Part shown: in pieces, positions 29,864 through 56,592 of the stretch
Numbering within the stretch: the stretch's first letter is position 1
Layout: each line of letters opens with the position of its first letter
From: Fimbriimonas ginsengisoli Gsoil 348
GTDB taxonomy: Bacteria > Armatimonadota > Fimbriimonadia > Fimbriimonadales > Fimbriimonadaceae
Length of the DNA: 64,000 bases
Reading direction: 5' to 3'
Assembly (NCBI RefSeq): GCF_000724625.1
Contig: NZ_CP007139.1
Location: 1,116,001-1,180,000, forward strand
Made by a program: the position numbers and the translations under genes
Notes under the pieces: model-generated
Database searches by the model: none
What the model saw: the letters and a program-made list of their open reading frames with translations, nothing else
Told to the model about the DNA's origin: nothing

Positions 29864-30382
29864 CTAGCTCATCCGAATGAAGTGCGTGGACGCGTTGGCG
29901 GTTCGGGTGTGGCGGAAACAGCCGTAACCTTCGCGGGATTGACCGTCGTTCGTGTTCCCTTCTAAGGTTCGATAAGAGTTGCCGGTCATCTCGATGACGT
30001 GGCCGCCGTGTCCAGTCGTTGGCGATTCGATGATGATGAAGACATCGCCGCGTCGGGGGGTAGTCACGAGCCGTCCAGTTTGGTGAGCCCATTCGTACCA
30101 GGAGTGCGTAGACGCCGGATTGGGCGGCAGTTCGGTGCCGCCGCTGTCCTTGAAGTTTGCCGCGACGAAGCTGACGCACCAGGGATCACCGGGATGGGCG
30201 CCGGCCGCCTCTAAGAAGTAGCTCACCTCGGGTCCCTTATTCGAGCCGCGCGGCTGCTCCTCGACCTTGCGAACATCCGTCCAGTAGGCCGCCCGCCGCA
30301 GAGCCCGCTCGTGAACCGGAAGCGCTTTCCAGGCTTCGGGTGTCAATTCGGGGGCGATGTCGTGTTGAGTCGGTTGAACCAC
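29864..30382 (-). CDS. CHAP-domain (NlpC/P60-like) amidase or peptidase
   Basis: 172 residues without a signal peptide. DPWCVSFVAANFKDSGG holds the catalytic Cys and GHGGHVIEMTGNSYRTLEGN holds the catalytic His and strand pattern of CHAP/TIGR02594-type amidases, which cut peptidoglycan peptides or gamma-glutamyl bonds. A GTG start is supported by TATGAT exactly six bases upstream. It might be a lytic enzyme released by lysis, a phage remnant or an autolysin; no phage genes are nearby. Confidence 0.8.
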   Translation of the reverse strand: MVQPTQHDIAPELTPEAWKALPVHERALRRAAYWTDVRKVEEQPRGSNKGPEVSYFLEAAGAHPGDPWCVSFVAANFKDSGGTELPPNPASTHSWYEWAHQTGRLVTTPRRGDVFIIIESPTTGHGGHVIEMTGNSYRTLEGNTNDGQSREGYGCFRHTRTANASTHFIRMS

Positions 30383-30388
30383 GAGGAC

Positions 30389-30394
30389 ATCATA
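30389..30394 (-). promoter_or_regulatory. Predicted -10 box of a leaderless transcript (CHAP gene)
   Basis: TATGAT on the minus strand, six bases, then the GTG start at 30382. Confidence 0.5.
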
Positions 30395-30767
30395 CAGCTT
30401 CTTGCACCCGCCGCCGGCAAATTGTACTTGTTTCCTCTCGAATATGAGGTCTATCGGGGATCCAGTGGGTGGAACCGGACGTCCCCGCGCCTGCCGCCCT
30501 GCCTTTCTCCCAAATTAAACCTAATCGCTCCGTCTGTAGGTCAAATTGAGAGAAAGGCGGGGCTTTGCATGGGCTGTTAAAAAGATCCGTCCAAAGCGCC
30601 CACGTCAATTGTCGATAGACCCGAATATGGTTGAGAACAGACGAGAACCGGCGGAACAGGCAACTGAAGCCGTAACTGGAGAGCGGACATCATTGCTCCA
30701 CGGGCAAACCCCTCCCCTCCTAACCTTTTACGAAGAATAATTTAGGTGATTACGCTCACAGGTGTTC
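30395..30767. other. Intergenic stretch, no gene seen
   Basis: About 370 bases with short ORFs on both strands that lack start signals and protein-like composition. Base composition begins to fall here towards the accessory operon. No repeat of the families found elsewhere and no copy of the tRNA 3' end was found. Confidence 0.5.
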
Positions 30768-31145
30768 CTAATTTCCAAGTTTATCGCTTATTTCTCTGGA
30801 AACCTGGTCGACGATATCCAATAATCTCGGAAAGACCGGTATAAATTGACTGATTTCTCCAAAGAATAGCTCAACAGACACAACGATAGTATCGTTTTTC
30901 CAGGTAGCTTTGGCAGCCTTGTACTGACGATTAACGTCGTTGCAGGTCACCATAGCGGCGGTCTGATCACAACCTTCGGCATCTAGGAACTTCGCCAGCC
31001 GAAAATACTCCGGGTCCTTTTCAGCGACGAAAAGGATATACGTCATGCCCTCATATTTGAAGACGATGTCACCATCCTCGTCAGTCTTGGGGCGGTAGCC
31101 TTCGTCCAAGAGATACGTGGTGTAGATCTCTCCCTTGGTCATCAC
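30768..31145 (-). CDS. YbjN / secretion-chaperone-like protein, third gene of CFI-box operon
   Basis: 125 residues. Alternating strands and helices (IYTTYLLDEGYRPKTDEDGD, then IVFKYEGMTYILFVAEKDPE, YFRLAKF) with a final helix LPRLLDIVDQVSREIS match the YbjN/CesT-like chaperone fold. Members bind and hold other proteins; none is an enzyme. The start is GTG 31145 or ATG 31142, each overlapping the previous stop. The low GC is shared with its two neighbours. Confidence 0.6.
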   Translation of the reverse strand: MMTKGEIYTTYLLDEGYRPKTDEDGDIVFKYEGMTYILFVAEKDPEYFRLAKFLDAEGCDQTAAMVTCNDVNRQYKAAKATWKNDTIVVSVELFFGEISQFIPVFPRLLDIVDQVSREISDKLGN

Positions 31146-31390
31146 AAGTACACCTTATACTGACCTTGAAAACCTCCGCGCTTTACAGCAACCTGGCCAT
31201 TTACGTAGAGCGTGCATTCTGCCCCGGCGTCAGTGTCGACCTCAAAGTGCGCCTCACCGTTCGAATTCGTTCGCTGATCAGGCGTGAACCCACCTGCCAT
31301 GAACTGATGGATTTCGAATGATACTCGGACGTCCTTCGCAGGCCGACCGTCACTTCCTAATATAAGAACCGCAATATATCGCTTAGCCAT
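31142..31390 (-). CDS. Small Ig-like domain protein, second gene of CFI-box operon
   Basis: About 82 residues starting MAKRYIAVLILGSDGRPAKD, a single beta-sandwich resembling carboxypeptidase-regulatory or bacterial Ig-like domains (VRVSFEIHQF; GEAHFEVDTDAGAECTLYVN). There is no signal peptide, so it is probably cytosolic. ATG 31390 overlaps the CFI-box gene by eight bases, and its stop overlaps the next gene, so the three are translated together. Its job is not recognised; a partner-binding subunit is likely. Confidence 0.6.
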   Translation of the reverse strand: MAKRYIAVLILGSDGRPAKDVRVSFEIHQFMAGGFTPDQRTNSNGEAHFEVDTDAGAECTLYVNGQVAVKRGGFQGQYKVYL

Positions 31391-32207
31391 GGGTTTGTTT
31401 TTGCTCCTCGATGTTGTGAAAGCCCGCAATCTTCAAAGCTTTAGTTAAGGGAATTAGGACTGAATACTTGACCAACTTTCCCAATCTAGGGTGCCTAACG
31501 ACTACCTCTGCTGCTCCCGGGCCGGTCGCGTAGTACCACTTTACGAACAACTTTCCCATCGCGTGTCTGAGCAAACAACGATCCCGCCAATTTCTCAAAA
31601 CGAGAACGTCAGGGTGATCATACGAGCCATAACAGGCTGTCGCAATAAAGCAGGGGCCCTTCTTTGGTGGATTTTCTAGCTCTGCCAAAAATTTCCTGGC
31701 GGCAATATATGTCTCTTCGAGATGCTGAAAATTGGCGGTAATATAACGTAGTTCGGTGATTGCTTCTGGTTTACGCCCAATTGCCTGCAGGATATCTGCC
31801 TTAGTCAGCCGTGCGTAGGCATTGTCGGAGATTGATAACGCTTCGTCCAGAATTTTCAAAGCCTTGTTTGCGTTGTTTTTCTCCTGAGCTCTCGCAATTC
31901 CTGCCGCAGCCAAACCGCCCACTAGCGATTCCGATCCCTGTGCCATTTTGCGCATCAGAACCGAGGAGCCGAAGACCCGTAGGGCTCGAAAAACGTGATA
32001 GTTGGATTCGTGAAAGAGAACATCAGAATCTGAAGAATCCAGGGATTTGGCCGTCGTTATTTGCTGAAGGTAGACCTTGAGCTTCTGATCGATTTGCTTT
32101 TCGACCTTAGAGTCCTTTTTCGCATCTCCGGTCATTTGGGCGAAGAGGACATCTAAATCACTATCGTATTCTTCCAGAAGTCTCGTTTCCGCTGTTGGTA
32201 ATGGCAT
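31383..32207 (-). CDS. CFI-box-CTERM protein with helical repeat N terminus
   Basis: 274 residues. Residues about 1-180 are helical, with TPR-like repeats (NANKALKILDEALSISDNAY; LTKADILQAIGRKPEAITEL). Then comes CFIATACYGSYDHPDVLVLR and the family extension (RDRCLLRHAMGKLFVKWYYA; VVRHPRLGKLVKYSVLIPL). That is the CFI-box C-terminal domain, of unknown function, found in diverse bacteria. Its hydrophobic final helices may contact membrane. The lower GC and AT-rich codon choice differ from neighbours. First gene of a three-gene operon next to a tRNA; see findings. Confidence 0.75.
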   Translation of the reverse strand: MPLPTAETRLLEEYDSDLDVLFAQMTGDAKKDSKVEKQIDQKLKVYLQQITTAKSLDSSDSDVLFHESNYHVFRALRVFGSSVLMRKMAQGSESLVGGLAAAGIARAQEKNNANKALKILDEALSISDNAYARLTKADILQAIGRKPEAITELRYITANFQHLEETYIAARKFLAELENPPKKGPCFIATACYGSYDHPDVLVLRNWRDRCLLRHAMGKLFVKWYYATGPGAAEVVVRHPRLGKLVKYSVLIPLTKALKIAGFHNIEEQKQTHG

Positions 32208-32586
32208 ATCTGTGGTAGCTCCGCGCCAAATGGTAATGGAATTGGCGGAGAAATATCAGACAACCATTAAAAACATGCATGTTTACTAGTGAGAGCATGT
32301 ACATCCGCCTATCGTTTTGTAGGGGTATGCCAAAGGCGTTTCAACGGAACTTGGGGTTCCAGTGGATGACCGCTTTGGCTTGGCTGGCCGCTATGTCAGG
32401 TCGACCGTCAAGAAAATAATCCGGACCGTGGCCTGCCTCTAGGTCCTTAATAGGGCCTGGACCGGTACCCGAGTTCCTCTAAACCGAACGCTGCTACCGA
32501 GCGTATCCGGGAGTACTGACTAGAACTTCCTTCAACTGTGCCGGGATGTTTATAGAAGTGCCACCACGCGATAATGTGAAGACGGA
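32208..32586. other. Intergenic stretch between accessory operon and tRNA, no gene seen
   Basis: About 380 bases. It includes a short direct motif CATGCATGTTTACTAG and no long ORF or repeat family. It lies on the 3' side of the tRNA, where an integrated island would begin, but no integrase or duplicated tRNA end is present. Confidence 0.5.
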
Positions 32587-32662
32587 TGGTGGAGGCTAGG
32601 GGACTCGAACCCCTGACCCTCTGCTTGCAAAGCAGATGCTCTCCCAACTGAGCTAAGCCCCC
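32587..32662 (-). tRNA. tRNA-Ala (TGC)
   Basis: 76 bases on the minus strand. The acceptor GGGGGCT pairs with AGCCTCC (one G-U pair). The D-arm includes AGCTCAGTTGGGAGAGC, and the anticodon arm CTGCTTTGCAAGCAG shows TGC. The T-arm contains GGTTCGAGTCC, and the CCA end is encoded. Confidence 0.97.
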
Positions 32663-32765
32663 AAAATGGCGTCGCGCACGTCGCATGCGGCCAACGATCG
32701 GACACAGAGTATACCTGTCTTCAGAAATCCCGGTCGATCGTTCCTGTGATTAGCGCGACATGGTC

Positions 32766-32771
32766 TACTAT
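32766..32771 (+). promoter_or_regulatory. Predicted -10 box of a leaderless transcript (antitoxin)
   Basis: TACTAT, six bases, then ATG at 32778. This spacing argues for the 32778 start instead of ATG 32760 or 32772. Confidence 0.55.
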
Positions 32772-32777
32772 ATGACT

Positions 32778-33038
32778 ATGATCCAGGCAAACGTAGCTCA
32801 AGTGAAGGCCCGGCTGTCTCACTTTTTGCGGCTCGCGAAAGCTGGCGAGAAGGTGGTGATTTGCGAGCGAAATCGACCGATAGCGGAACTCACAGCCGTT
32901 CGTCCTCCGGTTGATAGGGCGTTGCGCGAGTCCGCCTTTGGAATGTATGCCGGACAGGTCGACGAGAAGGAGTTAGAGGACGCGTTACGACCGATGACCG
33001 ATCGAGAGGCGGATGAATTTGTCCAGGGCGGACTTTGA
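32778..33038 (+). CDS. Phd/YefM-type antitoxin
   Basis: About 86 residues. MIQANVAQVKARLSHFLRLA then KAGEKVVICERNRPIAELTA is the Phd/YefM N-terminal domain (N-V-x-x-x-K-x-x-L-S-x-L). The acidic C-terminal helix (YAGQVDEKELEDALRPMTDR) would wrap the toxin. The stop overlaps the toxin start (TTGA). Confidence 0.9.
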   Translation: MIQANVAQVKARLSHFLRLAKAGEKVVICERNRPIAELTAVRPPVDRALRESAFGMYAGQVDEKELEDALRPMTDREADEFVQGGL

Positions 33039-33418
33039 AAATCCTCCTGGACACAAGTGTCCTCTTACGGCTTTCGCTCGCAGAACAGACGCTCAGCAAG
33101 GAGTTGAAGGAGATATTGCTCGGGACGGAAAACTTGATGGTTACGGCTATTTCGCGCGCCGAGATCAACATCAAAGTCTCCGTCGGCAAACTCCATCTCC
33201 CGGTCCCCGAGTCGGTGTTCTGGGATGAGCTTATCTCGCGGCTTCAGGCCACTCAACTATCGTTTGACACTGCTCACGCCGCGCGGTTGGCGAGCTTGCC
33301 TTTATATCACCGCGACCCTTTCGACCGAATGATCTTGGCTCAATGCCTGGTCGAGGACCTAGTTTTAGCGACGACCGACATCATGCTTGGAAGTTACGGC
33401 GTGACCGTGGTCAATTAG
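33035..33418 (+). CDS. PIN-domain toxin, Phd-associated
   Basis: 127 residues. ILLDTSVLLRLSLAEQTLSK (Asp first), an ISRAEINIKVSVGKLHLP glutamate, and LYHRDPFDRMILAQCLVEDL (R-D-P-F-D-R-x-x-x-A-Q is the signature of the Sll0205-type PIN subgroup that partners Phd antitoxins), then LATTDIMLGSYGV. Probably an RNase. TTG start at 33035 overlaps the antitoxin stop. Confidence 0.9.
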   Translation: MKILLDTSVLLRLSLAEQTLSKELKEILLGTENLMVTAISRAEINIKVSVGKLHLPVPESVFWDELISRLQATQLSFDTAHAARLASLPLYHRDPFDRMILAQCLVEDLVLATTDIMLGSYGVTVVN

Positions 33419-33573
33419 AGTTCTCTCTCGCCCGCGACCTGGAGGTGCACACTGGTCAGCGAGAGTACCATCGCCTCGATCGGCACAATCAAGTAACTTC
33501 ACCGGCCTCGGAGCCTTCCATTTACCGCTATCATTGCGGCTGCTAGTACCTTACGCACCTATAGAGGGCGACT

Positions 33574-35343
33574 ATGAATTACCAGAAGATGACTCCGGCG
33601 CTTAACGCCCTGATGCATGACTTTGAGCACCCCCGCGTCGGAGGATTATCGGCTTCGCTCCAGTCGTTCGGTATCGTGCAGACGGATGCGACGGCGGATC
33701 CGAGTGTCGTGGTGAAGGTGCGGATCGACGACAAGCCAGAGACGGTCGCGCGCCTTGCCAAGATAGGAGTGACCGTCAACGAGCCCACTCGGAGCGAAGC
33801 CGGACGCAAGAACGGATACGTGGCCCGCACCGCATACCTTCCGATCAGCGCTCTTGGGAGTCTTTCCGACGACCCTTCGGTGCGGAGAATCAGTCCGGGC
33901 CGGTATCTGAACCTCTTGTTGGATACGGCAGCGGTCGCCGTAAACCTTCCCGCCTACAAAGCCGCGACCGGCGACACCGGAAAGGGAGTCGTCGTCGGGA
34001 TCGTGGACAGCGGCTTGGATTGCTCGCATCCCGCATTCGCAGGGCGCGTTCTCCGTGTTTGGGATCAAACGCTGGCCGGCGCAGGCGTCCCTGGTCGAAG
34101 CTACGGAACCGAGTTCGTGGCTCCGACCTTTACCGGCACGACCGATACCCACGGACACGGGACGCACGTCGCTGGAATCGCCGCGGGAAACGACGCGACT
34201 TATCAGGGGGTCGCCCATGAAGCGAACATCGTCTTTGTTAAGACCACGATGATGGACGCCCACATCGCAGACGGAGTCGAATACATCTTCGATGTCGCCG
34301 CCAGCCTCGGATTGCCTGCCGTCGTGAATCTGAGCCTCGGGGGTCACCACGACCCGCACGATGGGACGGACGACCTCTCGCATCGGATCGACCTTGTCTC
34401 AGGACCCCAACGCATCGTGGTGTGCGCGGCCGGCAACGAAGGGTCCCAGGATATTCATGCGCACACGAGTATCGCCCCCTCGGGCGCCGACACGATCAAT
34501 TTCGGCGTCGCTAATCCGGCAATGATCCCCGTTCTCAACGGGTGGTATCCGGGAACGTTCGAACTCGAAATCGCGGTGGAATCGCCCTCGGGGCTGATGA
34601 CGCCGTTTCAAGGCGTCATCCTCGCCGGTTCGCCGTCGAGGATTTATCCGCTCACGGATGGGACGATAAGAATGACGACGAACGGCCCCGACCCGGTCAG
34701 CGGAGACCACAACTTCTTCGTCGAGGTGCTCGGCGCGAGCCCGCTCGGTCAAGTCGCCGCCGGCGTGTGGAAGCTCCACGTGCGACGAGGACCCACGGCG
34801 GGGCCGGCGGGTGACCTTCACATTTGGAGCATGGAGGGGCACAACATCGGCCAAGTGCCTTTCGTATCGGGGAGCGGCGTTCCAGGACACAAGGTCGGTT
34901 CGCCGGGAGCCTCTGGTCAAGCGGTTACCGTCGCTTGCCTCTGTACAAAGAACAGTTGGACGGACGCCACGCCCGCGCCTCAATCGATTCCCTCTCTCAC
35001 CGTGGGCGGCCTCGCGTTTTTCAGCAGCGATGGACCGCTTCGCAACGGCGCTCAAAAGCCCGATTTCACTGCGCCCGGGGCGGTGATCGCCTCCGCCATG
35101 TCTTCCGCTTCCTTGCCGCTACCGAAAAACCGGCTGCTCGGCGGGTTCACCATCATGATGGGAACCAGCATGGCGGCCCCGTTTGTGACCGGCCTGGTTG
35201 CGCTCCTCTTGCAGAAGGATCCCACGCTCGACCCGGCCGGGGTGAAGGCGAAGCTTAAGGCTCGCTCCGCAATCCCCGGCGGAGCTCCCGGCGCTTGGGA
35301 CGCTCACTGGGGCTATGGGATAATCGACATGGCGACACCCTAG
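33574..35343 (+). CDS. Leaderless subtilisin-like serine protease (S8) with N-terminal prodomain
   Basis: 589 residues. Residues 1-115 form an N-terminal domain (MNYQKMTPALNALMHDFEHP ... VVVKVRIDDKPETVARLAKI ... ISPGRYLNLL) with the I9 propeptide pattern. The S8 triad follows: Asp145 in GIVDSGLDCSHPAFAG, His195 in HGHGTHVAGIAAGN and Ser532 in GTSMAAPFVTGLVALLL. A beta-sandwich P/Homo B-like domain is inserted at about 320-430 (TFELEIAVESPSG; AAGVWKLHVRRGPT). There is no signal peptide or Tat motif, so it may act in the cytosol or leave by a non-classical route. A short gene 14 bases on encodes a homologue of its own N-terminal domain. Confidence 0.93.
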   Translation: MNYQKMTPALNALMHDFEHPRVGGLSASLQSFGIVQTDATADPSVVVKVRIDDKPETVARLAKIGVTVNEPTRSEAGRKNGYVARTAYLPISALGSLSDDPSVRRISPGRYLNLLLDTAAVAVNLPAYKAATGDTGKGVVVGIVDSGLDCSHPAFAGRVLRVWDQTLAGAGVPGRSYGTEFVAPTFTGTTDTHGHGTHVAGIAAGNDATYQGVAHEANIVFVKTTMMDAHIADGVEYIFDVAASLGLPAVVNLSLGGHHDPHDGTDDLSHRIDLVSGPQRIVVCAAGNEGSQDIHAHTSIAPSGADTINFGVANPAMIPVLNGWYPGTFELEIAVESPSGLMTPFQGVILAGSPSRIYPLTDGTIRMTTNGPDPVSGDHNFFVEVLGASPLGQVAAGVWKLHVRRGPTAGPAGDLHIWSMEGHNIGQVPFVSGSGVPGHKVGSPGASGQAVTVACLCTKNSWTDATPAPQSIPSLTVGGLAFFSSDGPLRNGAQKPDFTAPGAVIASAMSSASLPLPKNRLLGGFTIMMGTSMAAPFVTGLVALLLQKDPTLDPAGVKAKLKARSAIPGGAPGAWDAHWGYGIIDMATP

Positions 35344-35356
35344 CGTCGAAGGATGA

Positions 35357-35620
35357 ATGAACTACCGAAAGTTGGATGCCGCGCTCGCTAGCGTGGTGGA
35401 CGATCTTTCCTATCCGGTCGAGGTTTCGGTTAGGACGCAACGCGCCCCCACTCAAACCGAGGCGACGGCATTGGCTCGCCTCGGCGTGGAGTTACCGAGC
35501 TTGGAACGGCCCGTCTTCACGGCAACCTTAAACCGGAAAGGGATCGGCTTTCTGTCGGAAGAGGACTGGGTCTTGAAAATTTCCCTTTGCCAGCCGCTGC
35601 AATACCTCAAGCCCGCCTAG
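35357..35620 (+). CDS. Free-standing copy of the subtilase N-terminal (prodomain-like) region
   Basis: 87 residues. MNYRKLDAALASVVDDLSYP matches MNYQKMTPALNALMHDFEHP at the protease N terminus, and VEVSVRTQRAPTQTEATALA then RLGVELPS matches VVVKVRIDDKPETVARLAKI then GVTVNEP, ending ISLCQPLQYLKPA against ISPGRYLNLLL. Between these it lacks a 20-25 residue stretch. There is no catalytic domain. It starts 13 bases after the protease stop with GAAGGA upstream. Most likely an inhibitor or folding chaperone for the protease, by analogy with I9 propeptide-like inhibitors; it could also be a decaying duplicate. Confidence 0.75.
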   Translation: MNYRKLDAALASVVDDLSYPVEVSVRTQRAPTQTEATALARLGVELPSLERPVFTATLNRKGIGFLSEEDWVLKISLCQPLQYLKPA

Positions 35621-35651
35621 GACGGTCTGCTAATTCTTTTGGTGTGAAGCG

Positions 35652-36950
35652 ATGTTGACCGCCCTTGCCCTCACCGTTTTAGCGACGACCGACTTGGACT
35701 ATCTGCACCAAGTCGCCCACGAAGTTGTCGACGCCAGCAAGGTCGTCGCGGGTGGCAGGATCGGCGATGCCAACCTAAACACCACCGGCTACACGGTGCG
35801 CGTTCCAGGCGGTACGCAGAGCTACTACCCGGCATTTTGGATGCGCGATGCCGCGATGATGCTGGGGGCAGACCTCGTTTCCGCGGACGAGGTCGAAGGG
35901 TGGATAAAGGTTATCGCCGCCGTTCAGCCCGGGCCGAGTGGACTCGACTTTCCACACGGATTGCACGTCCCCGCCTACAGCATTCCCGATCACATTACGC
36001 TTCAGGGGGAGGCGTGCTGGTACCCGGGAGCCTATGCGGACCAAGGGGTCGGCAACTACGGCTATCTTCCGCCGGCGGACGACGCATTCTATTTCATTCA
36101 GATGGCGCACGAGCAGTTTCGACTCACCCGGCGCTCCACATTTCTCCGCTCCCTGGTCAAAACCCGCTGGGGTAGCTCGCCCGTTATCGACATCTGCCAG
36201 AAGGCTTTCGAGTCGGTAGCGACCGACTCGCTCACCGGGCTCGTCGTCTGCGACGACGCAGCGGGTAAGGGACGGGTCGACTGGGGGTTCTGCGACTCGA
36301 TCACAAAGACGGGCAAGTGCCTGATGCCTTCCCTCCTGCGATGGCAAGCCGCCCGCCGCCTTGCGGCGATGTTCGACGCAGTTGGCCAAAGAGGCCGGGC
36401 GAGGAGCTTCCGCCAGGCCGCGGCGCTTATCTGCCGGAGCGTTGCGGCCAGCTTCTACCATCCGCTGGAACTCCACCAAGCAACGCTCCTTTCCGCCACC
36501 GGGTTGGGGAAGAGAGAGGACGTATGGGCCTCCGCTTTCGCGGTCTGGCTCGGAATTCTGCCCCGTCGCGAAGAAGAGGCTGTCGCACGGCGCCTGCTTT
36601 CGCTCTATTTAGCGGGTGGAACCGTCATGGAGGGGCAGGTCCGCCACATGCCGCCCACGGGCGAGTTCGGCGGCTTCTGGGAACGGGCGAGCTCCGGCCA
36701 GGGCACGTACCAGAACGGTGGCTTTTGGGCTACGCCGACGGGCTGGATGGTCGTTGCCCTCGAAAAAGTGGATCGCTCGGCAGGGGAGAAGTTGCTCGCT
36801 GAATACGTTGCCCATATTCGACGACACCGTTCCGAAGGTGCGCCGTATGAGTGGATCAACCCCGTCATTGGGGCGCGGGTAAACGGTAACTATGCTTCGT
36901 CGGCGGGTCTGGTTTATTCGGCCATACGGCAGGCTCGAAACGAGCGGTAA
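35652..36950 (+). CDS. Secreted six-hairpin glycosidase-like protein
   Basis: 432 residues with a short signal sequence. The chain has the alternating helix-turn pattern of (alpha/alpha)6 glycosidases. RVPGGTQSYYPAFWMRDAAM then MLGADL is the W-x-R-D substrate-site block seen in GH63/GH37/glucoamylase-like enzymes. DWGFCDSITKTGKCLMPSLL then RWQAARRLAAMFDAVGQ and YQNGGFWATPTGWMVVALEK follow. Several such families share the fold and differ in substrate, so no EC number is given. It is 31 bases after the prodomain gene on the same strand, but a functional link is not implied. Confidence 0.7.
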   Translation: MLTALALTVLATTDLDYLHQVAHEVVDASKVVAGGRIGDANLNTTGYTVRVPGGTQSYYPAFWMRDAAMMLGADLVSADEVEGWIKVIAAVQPGPSGLDFPHGLHVPAYSIPDHITLQGEACWYPGAYADQGVGNYGYLPPADDAFYFIQMAHEQFRLTRRSTFLRSLVKTRWGSSPVIDICQKAFESVATDSLTGLVVCDDAAGKGRVDWGFCDSITKTGKCLMPSLLRWQAARRLAAMFDAVGQRGRARSFRQAAALICRSVAASFYHPLELHQATLLSATGLGKREDVWASAFAVWLGILPRREEEAVARRLLSLYLAGGTVMEGQVRHMPPTGEFGGFWERASSGQGTYQNGGFWATPTGWMVVALEKVDRSAGEKLLAEYVAHIRRHRSEGAPYEWINPVIGARVNGNYASSAGLVYSAIRQARNER

Positions 36951-55056: not shown

Positions 55057-56592
55057 ATGACCCCCTTGTTGCTACTGCCCGTGCTTGCCGCCACCCTTCC
55101 CGATGCTAAAACGTTTGCCGCTCGCGAGCGAGACTGGTGGAACGGGCCTATCGTCTATCAAATCTTCGTAGACCGGTTCGCTCCGCCCGCCAACCTCGAG
55201 GCGAAGCGACACCTGTATGCGGCGCCTCGATCACTCCGGCCGTGGTCGGAAGATCCCAAGCCGGGGACACTTAACCAAGAGGTCGGCCTGTGGTCGCACG
55301 AGCTGGCGTTCTGGGGTGGGGACCTCAAGAGCCTCCGCTCGAAGCTCGACTACGTTCGAGCCCTTGGTCCCGACGTCGTTTACCTAAACCCGATCGTCGA
55401 GGCGTTGACGAACCACAAGTACGACGCGCTGGACTACGAGCGGGTCGCCCCCGAATACGGCACCCGCCAGGACGTGATCGACCTTGCCCACGAGCTTCAT
55501 GCCCACGGAATGAAGCTGATGCTGGACGGGGTTTTCAATCACATGGGGCGGAACGCCCCTCGATTCCAGTCCGCCCTGAAGGATCCGAAGAGCCCTTACC
55601 GGAACTGGTTTTTCATCGGTTCGAAGTATCCGATAGGATATCGAGCGTGGGAGACCGTCGCCAACCTCCCGGAGCTGCGAATCGAAAATCCCGAGGTGCG
55701 AAAGTATCTCTGGGAAGGACCGGAATCGGTCGTTCAAAAATATTTGAAGGAAGGGGTGGACGGTTGGCGTCTCGATACCGCTTTCGAGCTTGGAACGAAA
55801 TACCTTCACGAGCTCACGACAGCGGCTCATCGGGCGAAATCCGATTCCGTCGTTATCGGCGAGGTCTGGAACTATCCGGAAGGGTGGTCCCCGGCGATGG
55901 ACGGCATCATGAACTTCCACGCGGGGAGGATCGCTTCCGCGTTTGCCACCGGCAAGCTGGAAGGTCCGGTGGCGGGGCACATGCTCGAGCGCATGATCGC
56001 CGACTCGGGGATCGAGCCGGTGCTCCGCTCTTGGTTGGTGCTCGATAACCACGACACTGACCGACTCCTCAACCTTTTGCCAGACGAGAAGAGCCGCCAC
56101 ATCGCTCAGGCACTGCAATTCACCCTCCCTGGCGCTCCCGTCATGTATTACGGAACGGAGCTCGGAATGACGGGCGCCGGCGACCCCGGCTCGCGCGGCC
56201 CGATGCGATGGGATCTCAACGTCAACTCAAATCCTGAGTTGCAATGGAATCGCCGCCTCGTCGAAATGCGTAAGAAGGTTCGATCCTTACGGATCGGCGA
56301 TTTCCGGCGTTTGGAATCTGAGCACCTGCTGGCGTTCCTCCGGCTTACGGACAGAGTGGGAGAAACCGCCATCGTTCTTGCCAATCCCACCGACGCGCCG
56401 GTTCACGAGATCGTCGGCATTCGCGACGGCCGAATCATGAACGGCACCCGGCTCACCGACCGCCTTTCGTCCGCGCAGACATTGACCTTTGCCGGCATGG
56501 TCGAGGTAACACTTCCGCCCAAGTCAATCCGCGTCTTCACCCCCGTGACTACCGCTCGCGGCGGGTACACGCCATATAAGCGGATAGAGTAG
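55057..56592 (+). CDS. Secreted GH13 alpha-amylase-family glycosidase
   Basis: 511 residues with a short N-terminal signal-like segment (LLLLPVLAATLPDA). The four GH13 regions are present: DGVFNHMG, GWRLDTAFEL (nucleophile Asp240), IGEVWNYP (acid/base Glu269) and VLDNHDTDR (Asp333). A beta-sandwich domain C ends the protein. GH13 enzymes act on alpha-glucans; this length and arrangement fit a cyclomaltodextrinase or neopullulanase-like enzyme, but the subfamily is not fixed by eye. Its LacI neighbour suggests sugar induction. Confidence 0.93.
   Translation: MTPLLLLPVLAATLPDAKTFAARERDWWNGPIVYQIFVDRFAPPANLEAKRHLYAAPRSLRPWSEDPKPGTLNQEVGLWSHELAFWGGDLKSLRSKLDYVRALGPDVVYLNPIVEALTNHKYDALDYERVAPEYGTRQDVIDLAHELHAHGMKLMLDGVFNHMGRNAPRFQSALKDPKSPYRNWFFIGSKYPIGYRAWETVANLPELRIENPEVRKYLWEGPESVVQKYLKEGVDGWRLDTAFELGTKYLHELTTAAHRAKSDSVVIGEVWNYPEGWSPAMDGIMNFHAGRIASAFATGKLEGPVAGHMLERMIADSGIEPVLRSWLVLDNHDTDRLLNLLPDEKSRHIAQALQFTLPGAPVMYYGTELGMTGAGDPGSRGPMRWDLNVNSNPELQWNRRLVEMRKKVRSLRIGDFRRLESEHLLAFLRLTDRVGETAIVLANPTDAPVHEIVGIRDGRIMNGTRLTDRLSSAQTLTFAGMVEVTLPPKSIRVFTPVTTARGGYTPYKRIE

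Follow-up and report, generated by a model that had tools for sequence, protein, structure and literature searches.

A translationally coupled operon of three genes was identified on the minus strand of the genome of Fimbriimonas ginsengisoli Gsoil 348, a member of Armatimonadota with a genome of 5,231,762 bases in a single contig, as given in the available text of the genome report (PMC4072686). The operon was likely acquired horizontally, and its products may form a cytosolic scaffold/co-chaperone complex, a reading that we prefer only tentatively and that is our best guess from gene neighbourhoods. The DNA analysed, hereafter the window, is the stretch of 64,000 nucleotides at G000:C1:1116001-1180000, where G000 stands for this genome.

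Organization, composition and origin of the operon

The gene for a TPR-like helical protein of 274 aa with a C-terminal CFI-box, assigned by NF041770 and an AlphaFold2 model, is located at 31383-32207. It adjoins the gene for a stand-alone Ig-like (beta-sandwich) protein of 82 aa at 31142-31390 (ATG start), which shows weak matches to MG4 and Big_1 and is assigned by our own profile A1, and then the gene for a TY-Chap1 or YbjN/CesT-like protein of 124 aa, a predicted peptide-binding chaperone assigned by PF22551, at 30768-31142 (ATG start, with an in-frame GTG also present at 31145). The CFI and Ig-like genes overlap by 8 nt, with the stop TAA inside ATGGCTAA, and the Ig-like and TY-Chap genes by 1 nt (TGATG), in agreement with the first-pass annotation of three overlapping genes. 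A tRNA-Ala (TGC) was located by ARAGORN and Rfam RF00005 at 32587-32662 on the minus strand, and thus the operon lies on its 3' side, as had been claimed.

A low-GC, foreign-looking stretch, with approximate ends at 30400-33500 as judged from a 500-base GC profile and codon use (no strand assigned), includes besides the operon the tRNA-Ala and a low-GC pair of a Phd-like antitoxin and a PIN toxin (32760-33418, plus strand), a neighbour outside the operon on the 5' side of tRNA-Ala. Other neighbours are a CHAP-domain-like protein at 29864-30382 (PF05257 just below threshold; in PHROG it matches an endolysin family best, E 3.4e-12) and an S8 subtilase at 33574-35343 (PF00082, E 4e-35; PADLOC "subtilase" 8.4e-30 and IetS 1.7e-11), followed at 35357-35620 by a small ORF that resembles a subtilase N-terminal region by eye and is perhaps a free propeptide.

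Composition was compared with that of the 51 other window genes of at least 80 aa called by a purpose-written script. The GC content is 0.479 for the CFI gene, 0.514 for the Ig-like gene and 0.468 for the TY-Chap gene, 4.6 to 6.6 standard deviations under the mean of the 51 genes (0.616 +/- 0.022). The GC3 values are 0.515, 0.524 and 0.568 in the same order, against 0.752 +/- 0.051, and none of the 51 genes falls under the operon genes in GC3 or in codon adaptation. The low GC noted earlier for this stretch is borne out.

Among the 20 genomes of the genus, the CFI protein was matched only in the genome of the window itself and was absent from the other 19. At 18 loci from 17 relatives, no tblastn match (E 1e-4) to the CFI, Ig-like or TY-Chap protein was detected beside the conserved IMPase-RuvX-MltG genes, and likewise none to the CHAP, Phd, PIN, S8 and GH proteins. 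Because codon use is foreign, the CFI protein is confined to one genome in the genus and relatives lack a match beside IMPase-RuvX-MltG, horizontal acquisition is likely, as had been proposed; the alternative finding, an operon at the same place in all relatives with ordinary codon use, does not hold. That these are native genes with drifting composition is quite improbable, given a sharp composition step and GC3 and codon-adaptation values under those of all 51 genes. In favour of a native origin, the genus is broad (the best IMPase match shows 51-69% identity in 18 of the 19 other members and 29% in G007), so that absence from these members could be due to loss. In addition, the pairs of Ig-like and TPR-type genes described below are not consistently low in GC: relative to the flanks, the pairs of G048 and G190 are lower and that of G213 slightly lower, and of the two in G021 one is equal and one higher.

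Insertion targeted to the tRNA was not demonstrated, because no att copy, no integrase and no clean empty site were found. The 3' end of tRNA-Ala (last 16-30 nt) has no second copy within the window, the best other 25-nt match being 17/25 at 55754, and no integrase was recognized among eight genes scanned around the operon, from 29864 to 36950, both in agreement with the first reading. Direct repeats flanking the operon appear to be at chance level. The tRNA-Ala(TGC) and IMPase share one fetched locus in 11 of the 17 relatives, separated by anything from about 50 bases to roughly 16 kb and with an orientation that varies. This place is variable across relatives, the genes between tRNA and IMPase including no common island genes as judged by eye. 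Since the tRNA-IMPase interval varies in DNA and orientation, the search for an empty site after the tRNA gave no clean one among the relatives compared. Of the earlier proposal of a foreign module at a tRNA end, only the acquisition is supported.

Features of the three proteins

The CFI-box of the window protein was identified with NF041770 at 80.8 bits (cut-off 40; E 4.5e-23) over residues 186-250 of 274, at the C-terminal end as this family expects; the N-termini differ among other CFI-box proteins. The AlphaFold2 model is all-helical (pLDDT 78.9), with a box of four helices mostly above 90, and the box modelled alone gave a mean pLDDT of 84 and a pTM of 0.70. TPR_19 matched below threshold (20.2 bits against a cut-off of 25), and in the Foldseek search with the whole model several TPR proteins were in the top rows (best E 0.063). 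The CFI-box named earlier is upheld by a family match above cut-off and the helical build by the model, the TPR character being putative. For the box model, Foldseek found nothing in the PDB up to E 10 and six matches in BFVD, all weak, and VIA-align, for the two chains compared, gave a best Z of 3.4 with a VEL domain. PDB sequence searches with the protein and the box yielded chance-level matches only, and a scan of genome contigs with the CFI protein alone yielded none.

The CFI-box domain occurs across viral contigs, plasmids and bacterial genomes, and no paper on it was found in the literature searched. The CFI_box_CTERM proteins of NF041770 on viral contigs resemble the window protein in having a C-terminal box after a short linker and a helical N-terminal part (the Zn ribbon and the helices being judged by eye, and two of these proteins having no Pfam match), but differ in that a stand-alone Ig-like or TY-chaperone gene was a neighbour at none of the 18 viral-contig and none of the eight plasmid CFI loci fetched.

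By eye, none of the three operon proteins carries a signal peptide or membrane segment, and the highest 19-residue Kyte-Doolittle mean is at most 1.24 in seven CFI-boxes; by sequence, the box looks soluble and does not appear to span a membrane. The envelope complex suggested earlier is therefore unsupported. It is highly improbable that the CFI protein is a secreted or surface effector served by a T3SS-like chaperone: it has no export signal by eye, and the secretion genes given in the available text of the F. ginsengisoli paper (PMC4072686) are of types II and IV, type III not being named. What speaks for an effector is that TY-Chap1 belongs, by its family description, to the YopN/CesT/YbjN fold group, and that some CFI-box proteins elsewhere (L066-L069) appear by eye to be exported.

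The assignment of the third protein as YbjN/CesT-like was confirmed through PF22551 (36.1 bits, gathering cut-off 27, E 5.9e-9), while YbjN itself (PF10722) scored 20.4 bits, under its gathering cut-off of 22. Peptide-binding chaperone activity of TY-Chap1 has been predicted in the available text of PMC9503650. Its nearest plasmid relatives are from Deinococcus, none was detected in phages, and its profile matched no PDB sequence.

The small Ig-like protein is below the Pfam gathering cut-offs, with 18.4 bits against 34.9 for Bacterial Ig-like group 1 (Big_1, PF02369) and 21.9 against 24.7 for MG4 (PF17789), yet its own profile delimits a clear family, so that the earlier description holds. 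Profile A1 detected 15 strong places (E < 1e-17) in 11 of 291 Armatimonadota genomes, most of which match by construction because its 11 rows were themselves drawn from strong places; with the single window protein as query, 13 places in nine of the 291 genomes were found. Alignment A3 scanned against genome contigs gave four loci, all already in the set. Ig-like queries found nothing on plasmids and viral contigs, and matches of the profile to PDB sequences were weak (best E 0.01).

A second gene of the same Ig-like family is present in F. ginsengisoli at G000:C1:1748050-1748283 (L116 5036-5290), with an ordinary GC of 0.596 and without a CFI or TPR-family neighbour. At locus L124 (37-5470), a BTAD/AAA_35 and an AAA_35/WD40 gene are followed, 44 bases after the second, by an Ig-like gene; L125 shows a similar AAA_35-type and Ig-like arrangement by gene calls only, and in L123 another gene lies between the AAA_35-type genes and the Ig-like gene. 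In G005 (L121), the gene that follows the Ig-like one had been taken as Hsp70-like by eye only, and was dropped after Pfam and NCBIfam gave nothing.

Co-occurrence of Ig-like, CFI-box and TPR-type genes

Whole-genome counts were made for one phylum, the 291 genomes of Armatimonadota: 19 genomes carry the CFI-box, at 20 places in all, and 13 carry TY-Chap1, at 17. Only F. ginsengisoli and G213 possess a strong Ig-like gene together with a CFI-box gene, and in both genomes the two adjoin, though in opposite order. The CFI gene comes first in F. ginsengisoli; in G213, which was found through the CFI-box search and not via the Ig search, the Ig-like gene comes first, 12 bases ahead of the CFI-box gene. 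Six-frame profile scans of all fetched loci placed Ig beside CFI only in the window and in G213, and 18 of the 20 CFI-box places in the phylum are without an Ig neighbour within about 1.5 kb, contig ends shortening some of these loci. In these scans the TY-Chap gene adjoined Ig or CFI nowhere but in the window, one of its 17 places in the phylum. Thus, co-occurrence outside this genome was seen for two of the three families, and the genome-context check succeeded for the Ig/CFI pair and failed for TY-Chap with that pair. The recurrence of Ig-like and CFI genes side by side suggests, at the level of gene order, that their products work jointly.

In Abditibacterium (G021), the Ig-like gene is followed by one for a TPR-type protein of 232 aa, with TPR motifs below cut-off. 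A search with this protein gave five strong places (E <= 4.8e-14; the next at 4.7e-5), two in G021 and one each in G048, G213 and G190. A profile of these five recovered its members at 1.7e-60 or better, and then matches from 1.2e-9 that were mostly the TPR motif alone; the family was not found on plasmids. A same-strand Ig-like neighbour is present at all five places, 12 to about 600 bases away, of which only G190 is an independent test because the other four were first met via Ig or CFI searches; the Ig-like gene of G190 is weak (6.5e-6 by profile). The C-termini of the family differ, being a CFI-box in G213, a hydrophobic hairpin in both G021 proteins and in G048 (Kyte-Doolittle means over 19 residues peak at 2.05 and 2.73 in the two sequences computed) and neither in G190.

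These pairs resemble the window in having a small Ig-like gene and a TPR-type gene side by side on one strand, but differ from it in the absence of TY-Chap, in the three hairpins and the lack of either module in G190, and in an N-terminal part without detectable homology. Membership of the window CFI protein in the five-member family was rejected (hhalign E 0.074, probability 0.8; no match of the profile in G000). Since the N-terminal parts are not significantly related, the window and the TPR-family cases share only the Ig neighbour and, in G213, the CFI-box.

That the Ig-like and CFI/TPR proteins work jointly is fairly likely. It is somewhat unlikely that three unrelated cargo genes arrived together and form an operon without joint function, since the three genes overlap translationally and since the Ig-like gene adjoins the CFI-box gene in both genomes that contain the two and adjoins the TPR-family gene at all five places. 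Such a chance assembly would fit the finding of the three-gene set only once among all loci compared, the occurrence of the Ig-like family also beside AAA_35/WD40 genes in one genus and, in G001, beside a gene that looks like SufB by eye, and the lone Ig-like copy elsewhere in the F. ginsengisoli genome.

Chaperone neighbours and possible function

The scaffold/co-chaperone role is favoured because CFI-box genes adjoin Hsp70 and TY-Chap1 adjoins Hsp100-type AAA genes. Genes for J-domain/TPR/CFI-box proteins are located next to Hsp70 in G050 (DnaJ E 8.9e-18; Hsp70 E 4.9e-111) and G077 (5.4e-14 and 2.3e-113, respectively), and on a Haliscomenobacter plasmid CFI-box, coiled-coil-like, Hsp70 (E 8.8e-67) and AAA genes stand in a row. 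TY-Chap1 comes directly after Hsp100-type AAA genes in three of the five neighbourhoods fetched (G259, G023 and G050), the type being our reading of the set AAA, AAA_2 and AAA_lid_9 in G050 and G023 and a judgement by eye in G259. The proteins of G050 and G077 are like that of the window in combining TPR with a CFI-box, but have a J-domain and an adjacent Hsp70 and lack neighbours of the Ig-like or TY-Chap type. Next to the window operon itself, neither Hsp70 nor Hsp100 was seen. A member of the YbjN family, DR1245, is described as binding DdrB in the available text of PMC3575483.

In the complex that we infer, clients or partners would be bound by the TPR-like region of the CFI protein, to which the small Ig-like protein would be dedicated as a partner. 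According to the model, the CFI-box is a compact, soluble module of four helices at the C-terminus; it would attach the scaffold to a target, for instance a chaperone machine or a membrane-associated site, and the TY-chaperone would maintain the solubility of a peptide or partner. That the chaperone serves the CFI-box protein, as supposed in the first-pass annotation, is possible, but TY-Chap accompanies the Ig/CFI pair in this genome only. A broader idea, which we consider doubtful, is that the CFI-box serves generally as a soluble docking module that can take the place of a membrane anchor (the same slot in G213 as the hairpin in G021 and G048), and that CFI-box proteins, Hsp70/J and TY-chaperones belong to one undescribed scaffold/co-chaperone family with the Ig-like protein as adaptor. 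The linked partner gene, the alternation of hairpin and CFI-box within one family and the Hsp70/J neighbours provide testable handles on the role of the CFI-box.

The operon could instead be an anti-phage or conflict module, in which the CFI/TPR protein is sensor or effector, the Ig-like protein an adaptor and the TY-chaperone a restraint until infection, but this is unlikely. None of the three proteins matched PADLOC at E up to 1, no toxic or nuclease domain was recognizable in them with Pfam and NCBIfam, and no ADP-ribose genes were seen beside the operon. The hints of the defence-related complex proposed earlier are indirect, and weaker than the scaffold/co-chaperone links: the distribution is patchy and foreign, one genus has Ig-like genes after STAND-like AAA_35/WD40 genes, the available text of PMC9503650 describes TY-Chap1 within predicted virus-countering systems, and the closest plasmid TY-Chaps follow an AddA-like UvrD/PD-(D/E)XK gene in Deinococcus (three of the six records examined). 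Both the TY-Chap1 of the ARG-centred predicted antiviral systems, in the available text of that paper, and the Deinococcus YbjN-like genes share with the window the PF22551 or YbjN-like fold group, but the window operon is without an ADP-ribosyl glycohydrolase or helicase-nuclease gene.

In the three Deinococcus plasmid records (L219, L220 and L221), the YbjN/TY-Chap-like gene is located after AddA-like UvrD and PD-(D/E)XK genes, which are in pieces in L221, a candidate defence or repair operon, and in two of them (L219 and L220) it is followed by a gene for a WYL-type regulator.
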